From Verrucomicrobiota bacterium (GTDB lineage: Bacteria; Verrucomicrobiota; Verrucomicrobiia; Verrucomicrobiales; Akkermansiaceae), in assembly GCA_004293445.1 (NCBI GenBank), contig RDYP01000019.1, positions 1-44,946 of the forward strand: 44,946 bases of DNA. Direction: 5' to 3'. Position 1 is the stretch's first letter, and every line of letters begins with the position of its first letter. The position numbers were made by a program, and so were the translations under genes. Positions 10,965 through 23,308 of this stretch are shown piece by piece. The notes beneath the pieces were generated by a model. That model did not search any database. It was given only the letters and a program-made list of their open reading frames with translations, and was not told where the DNA came from.

Positions 10965-12408
10965 GATGTCGGCCCGTGTCGTCAGCCTGTTCTTGCTCTC
11001 CGTCGCGGTGCTGGACGGCCAGGATTCGGCGTCGTCTGGCGGGCTGTCTCCTGCCGCGCCCGTGACGCGTCCCAGTGGCTCAGAACGCGCGATTAGCCGT
11101 TCCGAGATGTTTCGGGTGGCTGGCGGCGACAGCGAGCGGCGGGGATCGGTCGCCTTGTTTCTGGAGAAGGTCCGCGATGACTTTGAAGATTTGTTGCGTG
11201 ATCGCGATGCTTCCGAGGAGGGGCGGGTTGCTGAGAAAGGTGGCTTCGCCGAGGTGGCGCCGAGGCCTGATGATTTTGTCGTGCCGGTCGATGTCGTATT
11301 GCTGGGTAAAGAAGCGGACGAACCCGTGCCCCAGGCGATCGGCTTCGATTTGCGGTTCACGGAAGACTCGTTTTTGCTGCGACTGCGAGTTCACTTGGGC
11401 GGTGGGATTGATGAACTGGCATTGGAGCGGGCGGCGCTGACGGTATTGCTTTACGAGCGTTCGCTGCGGGGTTTGAAGCCTGGTGCTTTCGATGATCCGC
11501 TGTTGGTCAGGCCGTGGCTGGTCGAGGGCTTGCTTGAGGCCGCGCGTTGGCGTGCCGGCCGAGCGGACCGTGGAATTTATGAAGGGGTCTTCCGTCGGGG
11601 AGGGGGCTTCACCTTGGATGAGCTGTTCGAATTGCCGGAGCATCGTTTCAAGCAGCTCGACGGTGCCTCGCGGCTCGCATTTCGCGCCCTGTCCGGGGCT
11701 CTGGTCATTGCCCTGCTGGAACAACCGGGCGGGCGGGGTGGGTTTCGTGTATTCTGTGACGATGCCGCGCGTTTTTCCGGAGAGATGCCGGTTTTGTTGC
11801 GCCGCCATTTCCCGGACTTGAATTTGTCGGAGCAAAGTCTGGCCAAGTGGTGGGCCTTGACGCTGGCCAAGTTGGTCGAGCCGAAGCTTTCGGAAGTTCT
11901 CTCGATCCGAGAAACTGAGGAAGCTCTGGTGGCTGGCCTGACCTTTCACGGGCGCGATGCGTCGGGCAAACCGGTGAAGCGTGGGATTGAAGAATGGCGG
12001 AGCCTCGTTGAGCTGGATCCGGCTGATCGCGTGGAGGACTTGCGGGTGGCCGGGGAGGCATTGACGCGGCTGAGCTATCGATGTTTCCCCTCCTATCGTC
12101 CGATGTTGGCGGAATATCAGAGGATCCTGCGTGAGCTGGGAGCCGGAGGGAATCCGGAGCTCGATTCTCGGCTGGCGGAGTTGGCGGAGCAGCGTCGAGT
12201 GCGGGTGGAGCGAGCCTTGCGGGCGCGTGATTACATGGATTATTTCGAAATTTCCCGTGCCCGAGATTTGAGTGGGGAGTTCGACGACTACCTAAGGCTC
12301 AAGCAGGAGTTGGAATTGCGGCCACGAACCGCGCGGAAGGACCGGATCTCGCTACGTCTCGACACGATGCAGCGTCTCTATGAAGCCCCACGAAAGCCGC
12401 GGCCTTGA
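10954..12408 (+). CDS. Unrecognised secreted protein
   Basis: A 484-residue protein beginning MCFEMSARVVSLFLLSVAVLDG, which looks like a signal peptide. ATG 10954 overlaps the previous stop by 11 bases and sits 4 bases after GGGGAG; ATG 10966 (480 residues) is equally possible. The mature part is rich in Arg, Glu and Leu, with a predicted beta-containing domain near residues 90-210 (VDVVLLGKEADEPVPQAIGFDL, then IDELALERAALTVLLYERSLRG), and a highly charged helical C-terminus. No motif I recognise is present. The coupled upstream gene suggests an envelope-associated pair. Confidence 0.65.
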   Translation: MCFEMSARVVSLFLLSVAVLDGQDSASSGGLSPAAPVTRPSGSERAISRSEMFRVAGGDSERRGSVALFLEKVRDDFEDLLRDRDASEEGRVAEKGGFAEVAPRPDDFVVPVDVVLLGKEADEPVPQAIGFDLRFTEDSFLLRLRVHLGGGIDELALERAALTVLLYERSLRGLKPGAFDDPLLVRPWLVEGLLEAARWRAGRADRGIYEGVFRRGGGFTLDELFELPEHRFKQLDGASRLAFRALSGALVIALLEQPGGRGGFRVFCDDAARFSGEMPVLLRRHFPDLNLSEQSLAKWWALTLAKLVEPKLSEVLSIRETEEALVAGLTFHGRDASGKPVKRGIEEWRSLVELDPADRVEDLRVAGEALTRLSYRCFPSYRPMLAEYQRILRELGAGGNPELDSRLAELAEQRRVRVERALRARDYMDYFEISRARDLSGEFDDYLRLKQELELRPRTARKDRISLRLDTMQRLYEAPRKPRP

Positions 12409-12472
12409 GGTATTTTCGCTGGACCCATGGGCGTGGTTTGACAAGCCAGAGGACGATTCGCAGGGTTTCGGC

Positions 12473-13567
12473 GTGAGCATCATCCAAAGCAGTCCCCTTG
12501 AGGCGCTCCATCTTCGGCTTGGCGCCCGCATGGTGCCATTCGCCGGGTGGAACATGCCGGTTCAATACAGCTCGATCATGGACGAGCATGGCTCGGTCCG
12601 CAGCGGGGTGGGAATTTTCGACATTTCCCACATGGGTCAGTTTTTTGTGACCGGTCTCGGCGCGATGGCTTGGTTGAATCGGATGCTAACCAACAATGTC
12701 GCCAAGCTGGCGGTCGGGGAAGGGCAGTATTCGATACTGCTCAATGAGAAGGGTGGTGTGATCGATGACCTGATCGTTTATCGCAATGGCGAGGATTCGT
12801 TTTTCCTCGTGGTGAACGCATCGATGATTGACGAAGATTTCTTCTGGATGGCCAAGCATCAGCCGGATGATGTGGAGTTGAGGAATGAAAGTTCGCTGTG
12901 GGCGGGGCTCGCGGTGCAGGGGCCTGAGGCGGTGGCGGCTTTCGCACGAGTCTGCCCGGGCGTCTCGCTCCCTCCACGCAACGGGATCGCGAGCTTCGTC
13001 GTGGACGGTGTGACTTTGCTGGTGTGTCGTACGGGTTACACCGGAGAAGATGGCTTCGAGTTTTTCAGTCCAGCGGCCGACGGTGAGCGCTGGTTCGAGG
13101 CCTTTGTGGCGGAGGGCGCGAAGCCTTGCGGCTTGGGCGCGCGGGACAGCTTGCGTTTGGAAATGGGCTACCCGCTCAATGGCTCGGATCTTTCGCCGGA
13201 GCGGACGCCGATTGAGGCGGGCCTTGGTTTTTTCGTGGACCTCGACAAAGGCGATTTCATCGGACGCGAGGTGCTGGCGCGTCAGAAATCCGAAGGCCCT
13301 GCGCTCAAGTTGGTGGCTCTGGAATACACTGAAAAGGGCGCTCCCCCGCGCTCGCACTATCCGGTGTGCGACGCTGGGGGCGAAGTGGTTGGTGAACTTT
13401 CGAGCGGCATTCTCTCGCCGAGTCTCGGGAAGGGGATCGGCATGGCCTACCTGCCCGCCGCGCTCGCGAAGATTGGCACCCAGCTGACCGTCGATGTCCG
13501 AGGCCGGAATTTCCCGGCGCGGGTCGTGAAGAAACCGTTTTACAAGCCCGCCGCGCAAAAAGCATAA
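12473..13567 (+). CDS. gcvT: GcvT, aminomethyltransferase (T-protein) of glycine cleavage
   Basis: A 364-residue T-protein, which transfers the aminomethyl carbon from lipoyl-GcvH to tetrahydrofolate, releasing ammonia and 5,10-methylene-THF. LGARMVPFAGWNMPVQYSS near the N-terminus, FDISHMGQ, and GGVIDDLIVYR with the catalytic Asp at about D98 are all conserved. GYTGEDGFEFF and GLGARDSLRLEMGYPLNGSD belong to the folate-binding part. I chose GTG 12473, which follows AGGG at a normal distance and gives the expected length; ATG 12380 would add 31 residues unlike the family. gcvH starts 15 bases after the stop. Confidence 0.94.
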   Translation: MSIIQSSPLEALHLRLGARMVPFAGWNMPVQYSSIMDEHGSVRSGVGIFDISHMGQFFVTGLGAMAWLNRMLTNNVAKLAVGEGQYSILLNEKGGVIDDLIVYRNGEDSFFLVVNASMIDEDFFWMAKHQPDDVELRNESSLWAGLAVQGPEAVAAFARVCPGVSLPPRNGIASFVVDGVTLLVCRTGYTGEDGFEFFSPAADGERWFEAFVAEGAKPCGLGARDSLRLEMGYPLNGSDLSPERTPIEAGLGFFVDLDKGDFIGREVLARQKSEGPALKLVALEYTEKGAPPRSHYPVCDAGGEVVGELSSGILSPSLGKGIGMAYLPAALAKIGTQLTVDVRGRNFPARVVKKPFYKPAAQKA

Positions 13568-13581
13568 GCAACCAACTCCCA

Positions 13582-13959
13582 ATGAACGTTCCTCAAAATC
13601 TCCGCTACAATACCTCCCATGAGTGGGTTCTCTTGGAAGGCGATACCGCTACGGTCGGCATCACCGATCACGCTCAGGAAGAGCTTACCGACGTCGTTTT
13701 CGTCGAACTGCCGCCGGTCGGTAAGTCGGTCGATGTGGGTGATCCGACCGCCGTGGTCGAGTCGGTCAAGGCCGCCAGCGACATTTACGCGCCGGTTTCC
13801 GGCGAGGTGGTTGAGGTGAATCCGGCGGTCGAAGCCGATCCTTCGCTCGTCAATACCGATCCCTATGGCAAGGGTTGGATTTTCAAGCTTCAGCTCAAGG
13901 ATGCCGGCCAGCTCGGCGATCTGATGGATGCGGCTGGCTATCAGGCGATGATCGGCTGA
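13582..13959 (+). CDS. gcvH: GcvH, lipoyl carrier protein of glycine cleavage
   Basis: A 125-residue H-protein that shuttles the aminomethyl group between GcvP, GcvT and lipoamide dehydrogenase. The lipoylation site is K63 in VVESVKAASDIYAPVSGEV. The start (YNTSHEWVLLEGDTATVGIT) and FVELPPVGKSVDVGD are canonical. It is followed immediately by a terminator hairpin. Confidence 0.97.
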   Translation: MNVPQNLRYNTSHEWVLLEGDTATVGITDHAQEELTDVVFVELPPVGKSVDVGDPTAVVESVKAASDIYAPVSGEVVEVNPAVEADPSLVNTDPYGKGWIFKLQLKDAGQLGDLMDAAGYQAMIG

Positions 13960-13986
13960 TGCCGTTCTTTGTTGGCATGTTTTTTT
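13959..13986 (+). terminator. Rho-independent terminator after gcvH
   Basis: ATGCC at 13959-13963 pairs with GGCAT at 13974-13978 across a 10-base loop, followed by a G and seven T residues at 13980-13986. The stem starts inside the gcvH stop codon. It should partly end gcvTH transcripts and reduce or separate gcvP expression. Confidence 0.7.
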
Positions 13987-14112
13987 CGAGGGGGCGGGTG
14001 ATTCGGGGATAATTGGCACAGGCTGATTCCCGGGGTTGCGCGCCCTGCTTTTTCGACTATTCAGGGCGGGCCGCCGCAGGTGTTTTGCCTTCTCCCGGTG
14101 GCATTTTTCATC

Positions 14113-16947
<2,835 letters not shown>

Positions 16948-19050: not shown

Positions 19051-19389
19051 TCAGAGTGCTGCTTTGAGAGCGTTGAACTGGGTCTTCATTTTTCCCAGTT
19101 CCCGTTCAGCGCGGGATATCTGTTCATGGAGAGCTTGGAGCTTTGCCAATTTTCTGCTGATCGGACCCGAGGCGGAGTTCGATGAGATGGCAAAAGCCTC
19201 CGTGCCGCCGACGCCCGAGCGGATCCAACTGGCGATGGTAAGAGGGGAAATCTTGAACTTCTTGGCCGCAGCGCTTTGACCGCCTCTGCCTTTATCTGCG
19301 TTGACCTTGTCGACAAAGGCGACAATTTCAGCTTTTTCTTTCGCAGAATAACGTCGGCCCTTCGCCGCATTTATTTTTGAGTTGCTCAT
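19051..19389 (-). CDS. Small HTH and coiled-coil protein, probably DNA-binding
   Basis: A 112-residue basic protein. Residues about 12-58 (RRYSAKEKAEIVAFVDKVN, then QSAAAKKFKISPLTIASWIRS) look like the helix-turn-helix of transposase-type or Psq/homeodomain-like proteins. After a Ser/Gly linker, residues about 78-112 (RKLAKLQALHEQISRAERELGKMK) form a short coiled coil. No catalytic domain is present, so this is a stand-alone DNA binder or a domesticated transposase N-terminus rather than an active transposase. It is flanked by its own terminator and by AT-rich sequence upstream. Confidence 0.7.
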   Translation of the reverse strand: MSNSKINAAKGRRYSAKEKAEIVAFVDKVNADKGRGGQSAAAKKFKISPLTIASWIRSGVGGTEAFAISSNSASGPISRKLAKLQALHEQISRAERELGKMKTQFNALKAAL

Positions 19390-19614: not shown

Positions 19615-20748
19615 CTATGCGTGGAATTTGCTATTGAAGCACTGTGTGACTACATCGGCAAGATCGGACATGTTGGTGAGCCAGGCATCGGCGCCTTTGC
19701 GTACGGCTTCACGGGGAACGATGCCGCCGAAACCGATGAAGAGATCGACCTCGGGTTTGGTTTCGAGGTCGGAGACGCCATCGCCGACCATCACGGTGAA
19801 CTGTGGGAGTAAGGCTTGCTTCCACTCGCGGATGACCTCGGGTTTGCCGCCGTTGCGGGTGGTGGGGTAGCACTCGCCGTATCCGGCGTATTGGCCCTGT
19901 GCGTCGAAGGATAAGGGCACGGCCTCCACGTGTTCGATACCGAGGGCTTCGGCGAGAGGTTGGATGAGGGGGGCGAAGCCTCCGGAGAGGATGATCGGTG
20001 TCCAGCCCTCGGCTTTCAGGCGGGCGATGGTTTCGGGAACGGCCGGAACGATGGTGTCGAGGTAGAGGCGTGCGATCCGATCGGCAGTCTCGCGGTCGGG
20101 GCGGATGATGTCCATGCGGCGCCCGAAGACTTCGCCGATCGGGACTTCGCCGTTCATCGCTTGGTGGGTGAGGTGTTCGACTAGTTGGAAGGCTTCCGGT
20201 CCGCGTGCACGGCCGAGTTCGTCGATTCCTTCGATGGAGGAGAGTGTGGAATCGCAATCGAAGAAGATCAGTTTGCCACGGGTTCGGGTTGGGGGCTGGA
20301 TTTCAAGGATCATGCCTGGCTGGATGAGGTTGTGGAGTTCGATGATGTCGTGGTTCGACATCCGGATGCAGCCATGGCTGGCGGCTTGGCCGAGGAGGTC
20401 TTCGCGGTTGGTGCCGTGGAGATAAATGAAGCGGTCGAAGCTGTTCGCGTTTTCCGGATCGAGCCCGCTGATGCGAATCACGCGGCTGAGGATGAGGTCT
20501 TGGTCGCTGGTCTCGCCCTTTTTCCAGAGGCCGACGGGTTCGCGTGCGACGAAGATGGTGCCCTCCGGCATGCCATCGCCGATTTTTTCTGCGATCACAA
20601 AACGCCCGGTGGGGGTGCGATGGCTGCCCGGGGTGAAGCCGACGCCTTTCGAGGCAGTCGATACAGGAAAGCTGCGGACCTGTTCCGGTCCGCGGAAGAG
20701 GTGAAGGGTTTGGTCGTCGATGGAGACTTCGAGTCGGAGGTCGTTCAT
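19615..20748 (-). CDS. Fusion of L,D-transpeptidase (YkuD) domain and SerB-like HAD phosphatase
   Basis: A 377-residue two-domain protein. Residues about 4-150 form a YkuD domain with H111 in YLHGTN and the catalytic SHGCIRM (C127), plus the upstream GSHRTPTGRF strand. Residues about 158-377 form an HAD-IB phosphatase of the phosphoserine phosphatase type: FFDCDSTLSSIEGID (D164, D166), ILSGGFAPL, GGKPEVIREWK and VGDGVSDLETK. Both active sites look intact. There is no signal peptide, unlike normal L,D-transpeptidases, which act on peptidoglycan outside the membrane. The ATG overlaps the stop of the upstream synthase gene by ATGA, so the two are translationally coupled. The joint function is unknown. 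Confidence 0.88.
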   Translation of the reverse strand: MNDLRLEVSIDDQTLHLFRGPEQVRSFPVSTASKGVGFTPGSHRTPTGRFVIAEKIGDGMPEGTIFVAREPVGLWKKGETSDQDLILSRVIRISGLDPENANSFDRFIYLHGTNREDLLGQAASHGCIRMSNHDIIELHNLIQPGMILEIQPPTRTRGKLIFFDCDSTLSSIEGIDELGRARGPEAFQLVEHLTHQAMNGEVPIGEVFGRRMDIIRPDRETADRIARLYLDTIVPAVPETIARLKAEGWTPIILSGGFAPLIQPLAEALGIEHVEAVPLSFDAQGQYAGYGECYPTTRNGGKPEVIREWKQALLPQFTVMVGDGVSDLETKPEVDLFIGFGGIVPREAVRKGADAWLTNMSDLADVVTQCFNSKFHA

Positions 20749-21926
20749 GGCGAGGCTTGGAGGGCGATCAGAGCGTTTTTTCCGCCGAGAGCGGAGGCGA
20801 GTTTGAAGATGGTGGCTGAGGGGGGAAGTGCTGCGGGCGTCATTGAAAGCCCGGGCGGGCAGGTGATGTCGGGCGGGGTGGGGGGGAGTTGCTTTGCCGC
20901 GAGGTAGGCAGCGAGGATGGTGGTTTCGAGCAGGCCGCCACCGCCGATTCCGTGGCCGAGGAAGGGTTTGATTGGGCGGATTGCGGTATCCGGTCCGAGG
21001 GCTTGCAAGATGGCCGCGGGTTCGAGCGTGGCGTGCGACCGGGTTCCACTGGCGTGGGGGCAGAGGGCGACGGGTCGGCCGAATTTTTCGCGGGCTTGGC
21101 GGAGGAGCGCGGCAACGCCGGGCGCGCCTTTCGGCATACCGATGGGGTCGGCACCGTCGGCGTTTGCCATGTATCCGCGCAGAAGGGGGTGGGACCGGGA
21201 ACTGCAGCGGCGGATGGCGATTGCCGCGGCCGCCTCGGCGGGAAGAATGCCACGGGTCTCGGGTGAGTAGGGGTCGTTCAGCCCATTGATCGAAAGAATG
21301 CCAGTGGCAGCGTAGCTGGCGAGCAGGGTAGGGGACAGGGGGAGATCGACGGCGACGACCAGCGCACGGTCCGCAAGGCCGGCCTGGAGCCAGAGGGCTG
21401 CCATGCCGAGGGCATCGAGTCCTGCAGCGCAGCCGCTGGCTTGGACCTGCCAGGGACCGCGGATTCCCAGTTCGATGCTGATCGCTGCGGCGGGTTCGCT
21501 GTGCAGGGAATTGCTGGCCGACATGAGCGGGAAAGCTCTGCGTGTCGGCCAGGGATCGATCCAACCATCGGCCGTGCCCCGGCTGGTACCGAGGAAAAGA
21601 ACGGTGTCAGCGAGATCGGATGCGGACCATCCGGCGGCGGCGATTGCCTCGCGGGCCACGTGGAGGGCTGCCATGCTGGCGGGCGCCCACTTGCGGCTGG
21701 TTAGGAGACTGCGGGGTTCGATCCAACTCGCGGGGAGTTTGCGGTGGGGGGAGTCGGTGCCCAGCAGTCCGGCGAGGGGTCGGAACGGATTTTGCCCGGT
21801 TGTGATCGCCTTGAGGTGCGATGGCAGGTCGACGCCGAGGCCAGAGAGGGCTCCGAGTCCGGTGATGGAAAGCGGTGTGTCGATGGGCGGGACTAGAATT
21901 GCTGGTGGCGTGATGCCAAGGAAAAT
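20745..21926 (-). CDS. Beta-ketoacyl synthase-like protein with no canonical start codon at its conserved N-terminus
   Basis: The first ATG, at 21674, gives 309 residues, but the same frame is open to the stop of the preceding gene and upstream encodes a typical KAS beginning: TPLSITGLGALSGLG, then about 55 residues up to SRKWAPAS. No ATG, GTG or TTG lies in that extension; ATT at 21926 is used here as a nominal start. The catalytic Cys is in QASGCAAGLD and the two His are in CPHASGTRSH and FLGHGIGG, so the C-H-H triad is present. It may condense acyl chains, or act as a partner in a specialised lipid or polyene pathway, but no acyl carrier protein is adjacent. Confidence 0.75.
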   Translation of the reverse strand: MFLGITPPAILVPPIDTPLSITGLGALSGLGVDLPSHLKAITTGQNPFRPLAGLLGTDSPHRKLPASWIEPRSLLTSRKWAPASMAALHVAREAIAAAGWSASDLADTVLFLGTSRGTADGWIDPWPTRRAFPLMSASNSLHSEPAAAISIELGIRGPWQVQASGCAAGLDALGMAALWLQAGLADRALVVAVDLPLSPTLLASYAATGILSINGLNDPYSPETRGILPAEAAAAIAIRRCSSRSHPLLRGYMANADGADPIGMPKGAPGVAALLRQAREKFGRPVALCPHASGTRSHATLEPAAILQALGPDTAIRPIKPFLGHGIGGGGLLETTILAAYLAAKQLPPTPPDITCPPGLSMTPAALPPSATIFKLASALGGKNALIALQASP

Positions 21927-21932
21927 GGTCGC

Positions 21933-22457
21933 TCAAAAGCTGGGCCGGTCGGCGGGAGCTTCGACCGCGGGGAGGAGCTTGCGGAGTTCCGCGGGCAGAC
22001 GGGGGATCAGATCGGGAGGGATCGGCGGAGTGTTTGGGCGGAGCTGGCCGGAGGCGATGGCGGGGCCGGAGCTTCCGCCTCCACCGGGTGATTTCACGTC
22101 GTAGTCGAGCTGGTCCTTACCGTTGAAAAACCAAAGCCGACCGGGTCTTTCGACGAAGACGAACCAGGGCTTGGAGGGATCGGCGAGCTGGATGGCATGG
22201 CTGCTCGACGAACTGCTGCCGCCCATGCCGTGCTGTTCCCTGATCGTCTGCAACAAGGTCACTGCCGTGGGGGCGGGAGTGACCGTCACCTCGTGGGTGA
22301 TCGCTCCGACGGCGTGGGTGTAGGTGCCGGCGCGGTCGATGAAAGTGCCCGCGACGAGGGTGTTCGAGGTGGCCGGGACCGAGGACACGGTCATCGTATG
22401 TTTGCGGCAGGCGATGGCGGACAGGGCGAAAGCCAGTATGAAGAGGATGAACTTCAT
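21933..22457 (-). CDS. Small lipoprotein, unrecognised
   Basis: A 174-residue protein with a short hydrophobic signal ending LSAIAC, so C17 is the probable lipidated cysteine. The mature part is Pro/Ser/Gly-rich, with a possible beta domain near 20-115 (AGTYTHAVGAITHEVTVTP, then PWFVFVERPGRLWFFNGKD). The ATG overlaps the ftsY stop (TGATG). No function can be assigned. Confidence 0.7.
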   Translation of the reverse strand: MKFILFILAFALSAIACRKHTMTVSSVPATSNTLVAGTFIDRAGTYTHAVGAITHEVTVTPAPTAVTLLQTIREQHGMGGSSSSSSHAIQLADPSKPWFVFVERPGRLWFFNGKDQLDYDVKSPGGGGSSGPAIASGQLRPNTPPIPPDLIPRLPAELRKLLPAVEAPADRPSF

Positions 22458-23308
22458 CACAGCATTTCCTCAACGAATTTCACCTTGTTGAACAGGGCGA
22501 ATTGATCGGGTTCCTCGCCCATGCCGAGGTAGCGGGGGGCGATGCCGAGCTGGTCGTGGATAGCGACGGCGACGCCGCCTTTGCCGGAACCGTCCATTTT
22601 GGTCACGATGATGCCGTCGAGCGGACAGGCTTTGTGAAATTCTTTGGCTTGCTGGAGAGCGTTCGCTCCGGTGGTCGCATCGACGACCAGCAGGGTGAGA
22701 TGGGGCGCGCTGGGATCGTTCTTGGCGAGGGTGCGTTTGATCTTGGCGAGCTCCTCCATCAGATTGTGGCGGGTGTGAAGACGGCCGGCGGTGTCGCAGA
22801 TCAGGTATTTCGAACCGTCGGCGATGGCCTTTTGGTGGGCATTGAAGCAGACGGAAGAGGGGTCGGCGTTAGGCTGGCCCTTGACGACCGGGATGTCGAG
22901 GCGCTGGCCCCAACGTTCCAGCTGTTCGACAGCAGCGGCGCGGAAGGTATCGGCTGCGGCGAGCACGGTGGGCTGTCCGCGGCGTTGGAGCCAGTGGGCG
23001 AGTTTGGCGCAGGAGGTGGTTTTGCCGACGCCATTGATGCCGACAACGAGGAAAACGAAAGGCTTGCCATCGGCGCGGGGGAGCAGGGGTGGGGAGTCGG
23101 GCGGCAGGCGATTGGCGACGTGGCGACGAGCGGTTTCGATCACATCGGTTGCCGAGACCTTGCGGCCGAGGGCGCGGAGTTCGTCGACGATTTGCAGGGC
23201 GAGTTTGGGTCCGAGATCGGCGCTGATGAGATCCGCCTCCAACTCGTCCCAGTCGATTTCCGCTTTGTTTGCGATCTTGTTGAAGAGAGATTTGAAAAAG
23301 CCTGCCAT
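22457..23308 (-). CDS. ftsY: FtsY, signal recognition particle receptor
   Basis: A 283-residue SRP GTPase that docks SRP-ribosome complexes at the membrane. The N domain (FNKIANKAEIDWDELEADLISADLG) is followed directly by the G domain: VVGINGVGKTTSCAKLA, AAADTFRAAAVEQL, DTAGRLHT and TKMDGSGKGG. The acidic A domain of E. coli FtsY is absent, as in many bacteria, so membrane contact relies on the N-terminal helix MAGFFKSLFNKIA. It is first in a minus-strand run with the lipoprotein, the KAS-like gene and the YkuD-phosphatase gene. Confidence 0.95.
   Translation of the reverse strand: MAGFFKSLFNKIANKAEIDWDELEADLISADLGPKLALQIVDELRALGRKVSATDVIETARRHVANRLPPDSPPLLPRADGKPFVFLVVGINGVGKTTSCAKLAHWLQRRGQPTVLAAADTFRAAAVEQLERWGQRLDIPVVKGQPNADPSSVCFNAHQKAIADGSKYLICDTAGRLHTRHNLMEELAKIKRTLAKNDPSAPHLTLLVVDATTGANALQQAKEFHKACPLDGIIVTKMDGSGKGGVAVAIHDQLGIAPRYLGMGEEPDQFALFNKVKFVEEML

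Follow-up and report, generated by a model that had tools for sequence, protein, structure and literature searches.

A leaderless YkuD domain fused to a SerB-like phosphatase in Verrucomicrobia: a probable L,D-carboxypeptidase and phosphoserine phosphatase in one chain

According to PMC8649774, YkuD domains usually belong to secreted transpeptidases, and ElsL of A. baumannii, a leaderless YkuD protein of the cytosol, serves murein peptide recycling as an L,D-carboxypeptidase. The same paper reports predicted ElsL orthologs from all Verrucomicrobia orders, obtained in a survey with a length filter of 105-200 aa (PMC8649774). The gene described here joins a leaderless YkuD domain to a SerB-like phosphatase domain of the HAD type. 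It could not appear in that survey because proteins of more than 200 residues were excluded; the chain has 377 aa and its YkuD half alone about 150, so it is the fused phosphatase that takes the protein outside the published filter.

Judging from sequence and predicted fold, we consider it probable that the gene encodes a cytosolic bifunctional enzyme, in which an ElsL-type L,D-carboxypeptidase and a phosphoserine phosphatase, the products of neighbouring housekeeping genes, were joined. No description of a YkuD-phosphoserine phosphatase fusion was found in the open-access papers searched, which agrees with an earlier note on this DNA, whose author knew of no described pathway with this pair. 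The same note had argued that a cytosolic YkuD enzyme implies a different acyl-transfer chemistry. This is not supported, since the ElsL class is published and the YkuD domain of the fusion falls within the leaderless clade. On the best reading the architecture is what is new, and both enzymes are of known kinds, with no new chemistry.

Architecture, distribution and origin of the fusion gene

The features of the window, i.e. the whole stretch of 44,946 nucleotides that was analysed, are listed in Table 1. As the earlier note had proposed, one chain carries two intact active sites, with SHGC at residues 124-127, DCDST at 164-168 and GDGVSD at 322-327, and both domains are matched by profiles. 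The N-terminus, MNDLRLEVSIDDQ, reads as neither hydrophobic nor a signal peptide. Neither a transmembrane helix nor a wall-binding domain was found in the chain, and the only Pfam and NCBIfam models that match it are those for YkuD and HAD. The absence of a signal peptide, also claimed before, is upheld by the start: the equivalent position is occupied by the start methionine in 16 of 18 relatives compared, the exceptions being longer by two residues (L043) or beginning with GTG three residues in (L041). An earlier start is not a source of a leader either, as the in-frame upstream extension to 21564 crosses the ketoacyl synthase-like (KAS) gene in a different frame. Given that there is no leader, the chain is probably cytosolic.

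The AlphaFold2 model of the fusion, computed from a 46-row alignment, has a mean pLDDT of 94.1 and a pTM of 0.90. Its YkuD half matches the fold of B. subtilis YkuD (4a1i_A, Z 18.5, rmsd 1.5, 112 residues aligned). The solved chain nearest to the HAD half by fold is human PSPH (6hyj_A, Z 29.1, rmsd 1.8, 206 residues aligned).

Table 1. Positions of the fusion gene, its domains and neighbouring genes in the window, and of two related single-chain fusions at other loci
Feature	Position	Strand	Properties	Evidence
YkuD-SerB fusion gene	20748..19615	minus	ATG start, 377 aa, leaderless	ORF list, profile matches
YkuD domain (L,D-transpeptidase fold), residues 5-148	20305..20736	minus		PF03734, E 6.5e-20
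HAD-IB SerB-like domain, residues 155-366	19651..20286	minus		TIGR00338, E 3.7e-30, 105.2 bits
KAS-like gene	20745..21893	minus	GTG at 21893 most likely start (382 aa); first ATG at 21674	
Small putative lipoprotein	21933..22460	minus	175 aa	no Pfam/NCBIfam match
ftsY	22457..23308	minus		TIGR00064, 292 bits, above cut-off
Basic protein, HTH-like by eye	19051..19389	minus	112 aa	no Pfam/NCBIfam match
KAS::YkuD single-chain fusions	L079:4693-6444 and L081:4693-6447

The joining of the YkuD and SerB halves is real and conserved. The reading frame is open at about 20290, where resequencing might have split it, and a search for YkuD-HAD fusions, which the earlier note had suggested, found the one-frame form in 17 of 17 genomes drawn from the same genus and in one further genome (G026). 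Among genome contigs, 46 named loci within the best 80 of 492 confirmed candidates carry the fusion; they are the top of that list and not a census. These loci are titled Haloferula, Luteolibacter, Akkermansiaceae or other Verrucomicrobia, with the titles of metagenome-assembled genomes taken as deposited (some read Akkermansia muciniphila or Prosthecobacter), and the nearest named relatives point to a Luteolibacter/Haloferula-like bacterium. The frame is open through the match in 45 of the 46. The remaining locus, L130, has one stop. It lies after residue 366, since no stop interrupts query residues 1-366 when the same contig is read as L033. With 46 such loci, a frame error as the source of the fusion, or any other artefact, is ruled out.

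A wider draw from the phylum comprised 387 genomes, 146 of which gave a match at E 1e-20 or better. Among the matches listed, a full-length one-frame fusion occurred only in genera g1, g10 and g13, family f1. In other genera of the same family (G022, G023, G024, G027, G031 and G034) the ykuD and HAD genes are separate yet adjacent and in the same order; in G025 they are one gene apart, in others of these genera they are not neighbours, and each is also found standing alone elsewhere. Genes were called by scripts with heuristic rules, namely a comparison of ORFs or the GC content by codon position, and neighbours were named by family search or by eye. The YkuD tree is consistent with a single origin of the fusion (support 79/78; 82% of bootstrap trees). 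Adjacent separate genes in relatives give the usual picture, a fusion of neighbours.

The YkuD half and peptidoglycan recycling

His111 and Cys127 are invariant in all 46 aligned fusions, the window included; His125 of the SHGC motif is kept in only 31. The ElsL model NF040925 is the second-best NCBIfam model for the YkuD half (E 1.5e-27, 96.4 bits), and at 96 bits the fusion is below the curated cut-off of 270 bits. All of six other Verrucomicrobia YkuDs scanned with the model also fail (91-108 bits). The model does not discriminate here, because a lipoprotein-type paralogue scores as high as the fusion, with 108 bits. By length filter and model score the fusion is thus not a formal ElsL member; from its sequence, it most likely works like one.

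A better separation comes from phylogeny. All 57 genomes drawn as relatives have a good YkuD match, and these matches are of two kinds. The first kind is a putative lipoprotein of about 190-260 residues whose N-terminal hydrophobic segment ends in Cys; the active-site motif was SYGC in all ten of this kind in which it was inspected. Among 19 such paralogues (L236 left out) the hydrophobic stretch ending in Cys was seen by eye in every one, and the strict lipobox pattern was found in nine. The second kind is leaderless and either about 150 residues long or fused. In a 64-row tree the 42 leaderless-type rows, of which 16 are fusions, and the 22 lipoprotein-type rows form two groups, a split with a support of 100/99; A. 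baumannii ElsL is not among the rows. The YkuD half of the fusion lies within the leaderless clade, apart from the one lipoprotein-type paralogue (L065) of the source genome. Many genomes also have weak partial YkuD matches that span about 50 residues, with E between 1e-6 and 1e-9; that of the source genome is at G000:C1:356033.

The gene inventory is consistent with an ElsL-like role. Mpl exceeds its cut-off in 51 of the 57 genomes and LdcA (PF02016) is absent from 52, the source genome being included in both counts. Nine genomes have the lipoprotein-type YkuD only (G019, G021, G029, G033, G035, G040, G046, G047 and G052). LdcA was found in four of these nine, as against one (G026) of the 48 genomes with a leaderless-type YkuD (Fisher 0.0015, not corrected for relatedness). 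The exchange is complete in family f2, in which LdcA is present in 4/4 genomes without a leaderless YkuD and in 0/3 with one. Against an ElsL-like role, five of the nine lack LdcA as well. A further point against it is the import permease AmpG (TIGR00901), which gave no match in the source genome; weak matches occur in 10 of the 57, and all of them fall short of the cut-off. The classical import step is therefore either missing or replaced.

The mechanism that we propose for this half follows the ElsL pattern. Cys127, together with His111, would attack tetrapeptides derived from old peptidoglycan at the bond that joins D-Ala to the L-centre of diaminopimelate. An acyl-enzyme would form at Cys127 and the tripeptide would be released to water, i.e. 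an L,D-carboxypeptidase reaction, after which Mpl would link the tripeptide to UDP-MurNAc.

Two candidate observations on the recycling setting were rejected. An operon of the AmgK-MurU type around the YkuD gene, which gene sizes had suggested, was not upheld: the neighbours are BioB (BATS plus radical SAM) and a protein that looks secreted and has no Pfam match. The LdcA gene beside a YkuD gene in G035 was set aside as support, the YkuD there being of the lipoprotein type. Two side observations are recorded. G026 has a second KAS copy, 43% identical, which follows LdcA and a gene judged VanW-like by eye (L117:4181-7167). At G000:C6:39997-41118 and in relatives, MurC/Mpl-type matches sit in long frames (about 770-840 aa) that may represent MurC joined to another ligase.

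The phosphatase half and serine synthesis

The HAD half looks, from its sequence, like a phosphoserine phosphatase. SerB (TIGR00338) is its best NCBIfam model, with a score below the cut-off of 144.15 bits; this cut-off is passed in none of the 57 genomes and in 7 of 14 control genomes. None of the 46 aligned fusions deviates at the HAD residues D164, D166, S255, K302, D323 and D327. The same holds for E173, M198 and R211, which align to E29, M52 and R65 of PSPH; these we take, with their numbering and role from PSP structures, to be the residues that bind serine. By sequence, too, the nearest solved chain is human PSPH (4e-34; 1.6e-34). Asp164 would accept the phosphate and Asp166 would serve as acid/base, E173, M198 and R211 holding the serine part, and the L-serine released would complete the last step of the SerA-SerC-SerB route.

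In the source genome the fusion is the sole full-length match to the serB model; two partial matches sit in frames of 926 and 842 residues that appear to encode P-type ATPases. SerA passes its cut-off in 52 of the 57 genomes, the source genome included. The SerC step is less clear. The serC_1 model has no match in the source genome and weak matches in 6 of 19 genomes, and serC_2 has none in the source genome and exceeds its cut-off in 2 of 57 (G030 and G052). A class V aminotransferase gene is immediately upstream in 5 of the 46 fusion loci (L150, L154, L156, L158 and L173) and one gene away in G026. Its best model is BhcA, an aspartate-glyoxylate aminotransferase (215 of 650 bits), and serC_3 gives 67 of 402 bits. 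According to PMC9026213, SerC3 proteins, which are of the same Pfam family, are predicted phosphoserine aminotransferases, and the SerC3 gene shares a putative operon with serA in bacteria that include Akkermansia. Whether the aminotransferase beside some fusions is a SerC is uncertain from its sequence. A SerA-linked operon was ruled out in the eight SerA loci of seven genomes searched (L126-L128, L209-L213), which at E 1e-3 contain no YkuD, no HAD of the fusion type and no class V aminotransferase of the G026 type; by eye, L213 has another HAD and another aminotransferase near SerA. In three genomes (G029, G032 and G051) SerA is present and the serB model matches nothing, so this step can be carried out by a different phosphatase.

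The HAD domain also occurs by itself. In 33 loci among the best 80 of 492 candidates it stands alone, 53-61% identical to that of the fusion, and no YkuD match was found in the stretch of each locus that was examined. Fourteen of the 33 are titled Opitutia, Opitutae, Opitutaceae or Opitutus, the rest Rubritalea, Akkermansiaceae or unclassified. In L054 and L062 (G021 and G033) the HAD gene adjoins BioB. As a separate observation, genes identified by eye as gcvT, gcvH and gcvP are at 12380-16947 of the window on the plus strand, a few kilobases from the fusion, and a gcvP homologue is within the examined stretch of 13 of 17 same-genus loci.

The stand-alone HAD loci bear on a different explanation, namely that the phosphatase half, too, works in peptidoglycan recycling, e.g. 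as a phosphatase for MurNAc-6-phosphate or another sugar phosphate in place of MupP, the fusion joining two recycling steps. The fusion itself and the repeated adjacency with an ElsL-like gene would fit this, as would the missing serC_1 and serC_2. There is also a structural match (Z 21.9) to the Dunaliella GPDH 6iuy, which we take to be a case of a SerB-like domain serving another substrate in a fusion. Against it are the invariance of the phosphoserine-binding residues in all 46 fusions, the presence of SerA without a second full-length serB match, the aminotransferase upstream of some fusions and the HAD-only loci without YkuD. Together, these results make a recycling phosphatase unlikely, and a phosphoserine phosphatase remains our preferred assignment for this half. 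The two halves would then be chemically independent of each other.

The ketoacyl synthase gene and comparison with known systems

Translational coupling of the fusion to the KAS-like gene, another claim of the earlier note, was confirmed: the KAS stop and the fusion ATG share ATGA, an overlap of 4 bases. Conservation of this neighbour was checked as well. The KAS gene is immediately upstream in 39 of the 46 fusion loci. Each of these 39 has an overlap with the fusion start, which measures exactly 4 bases in 35 of them, with starts as chosen by a script. The other seven loci comprise five with the aminotransferase and two with neither gene, one of these at a contig end. All 38 KAS rows that were aligned, from the window plus 37 loci and with two cut-off copies excluded, retain Cys-His-His. 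Farther upstream in the window, the ATG of the lipoprotein gene overlaps the ftsY stop; by eye this gene resembles cluster 7, which is present in eight same-genus loci. The genes ftsY, lipoprotein, KAS and YkuD-SerB are a probable same-strand run with ftsY first. On the other side, a homologue of the 112-aa basic protein is found downstream of the fusion in 36 of the 46 loci, and at L116:7283-7978 there is a longer version, which by eye contains repeated units.

The link between KAS and YkuD extends beyond the fusion. In another family of the order (G042 and G039) a KAS and a leaderless-type YkuD are combined in a single chain of 583/584 aa. The gene order BioB-KAS-YkuD occurs in G025, G028, L133 and L175, with YkuD as a separate gene in G025, G028 and Rubritalea marina L175. 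A secreted-looking protein gene precedes BioB in the same order in L133, L175, L045 and L064. Proteins of this secreted-looking family have 227-268 aa and a CxSWGCHTGESM-like motif. The family (cluster 6) comprises L044:9134-9868 and nine relatives and is beside or near BioB in 10 of 10 loci; the one member scanned, L044, has no Pfam match.

These data raise the possibility that KAS and YkuD belong to one pathway, in which an acyl or ketoacyl thioester made by the KAS is moved by the YkuD cysteine to an amine or to water, the phosphatase being a third step or a passenger. The overlap in 39 loci, the single-chain forms, the adjoining separate genes and the intact KAS site all speak for it. However, genomes G023, G024, G032 and G034 have a leaderless-type YkuD and no KAS match at E 1e-3, G029 has a KAS and no leaderless-type YkuD, and in G026, G041, G045, G048 and G053 the KAS is apart from YkuD, among neighbours that look unrelated by eye. 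A recurrent gene for an acyl carrier, ligase or acyltransferase was not seen beside the pair, and the pairing could reflect shared regulation alone. We therefore regard a common pathway as improbable. The functional link proposed in the earlier note stands in part: the overlap and the two KAS::YkuD fusions argue for it, but each gene also occurs without the other and the pair is not obligate. A more specific version is similarly improbable. It holds that KAS and leaderless YkuD are one unit, given the ATGA overlap, the two fusions and the BioB gene beside the pair in several cases, and that the YkuD cysteine moves a KAS-made acyl chain. Part of the recycling family would then have been recruited to an undescribed cytosolic acyl-transfer route, in which serine made by the fused phosphatase might be the acceptor. 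The coupling of KAS to the fusion is strong and unexplained, and perhaps it is regulatory.

It is very improbable that the chain is exported as an ordinary periplasmic L,D-transpeptidase, as would suit the mostly secreted nature of YkuD transpeptidases (PMC8649774), and we reject this explanation because the chain has no leader, a conserved start and a fused phosphatase of cytosolic metabolism, and because the source genome has a separate lipoprotein-type YkuD in the other clade.

The preferred reading, an ElsL-type carboxypeptidase joined to a phosphoserine phosphatase, would add to the cytosolic YkuD carboxypeptidases a fused version, which the length filter of the published survey would have missed. 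It provides a testable candidate for a cytosolic L,D-carboxypeptidase in Verrucomicrobia, and it identifies the fusion as the likely phosphoserine phosphatase of Luteolibacter/Haloferula-type bacteria. The strongly conserved link to the ketoacyl synthase is a concrete lead.

Four known systems can be compared with the fusion. ElsL shares with it a leaderless YkuD of about 150 residues, a cysteine nucleophile and a genome with Mpl and without LdcA; the fusion differs in its attached phosphatase, in its score below the NF040925 cut-off and in a genome in which AmpG was not found. The exported L,D-transpeptidases, such as B. subtilis YkuD (4a1i) and mycobacterial LdtMt2, have the same fold and Cys/His site, whereas the fusion has no leader and no wall-binding domain was found in it. 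SerB and human PSPH (TIGR00338; 6hyj, 1nnl) have the HAD-IB fold and all catalytic and serine-binding residues in common with the fusion, in which the domain sits behind a YkuD domain and scores 105 bits against a 144-bit cut-off. Closest in arrangement are the separate leaderless ykuD and serB-like pairs of relatives, e.g. in G024 and G027, which have the same two domains, adjacent and in the same order, but in two chains where the fusion has one.
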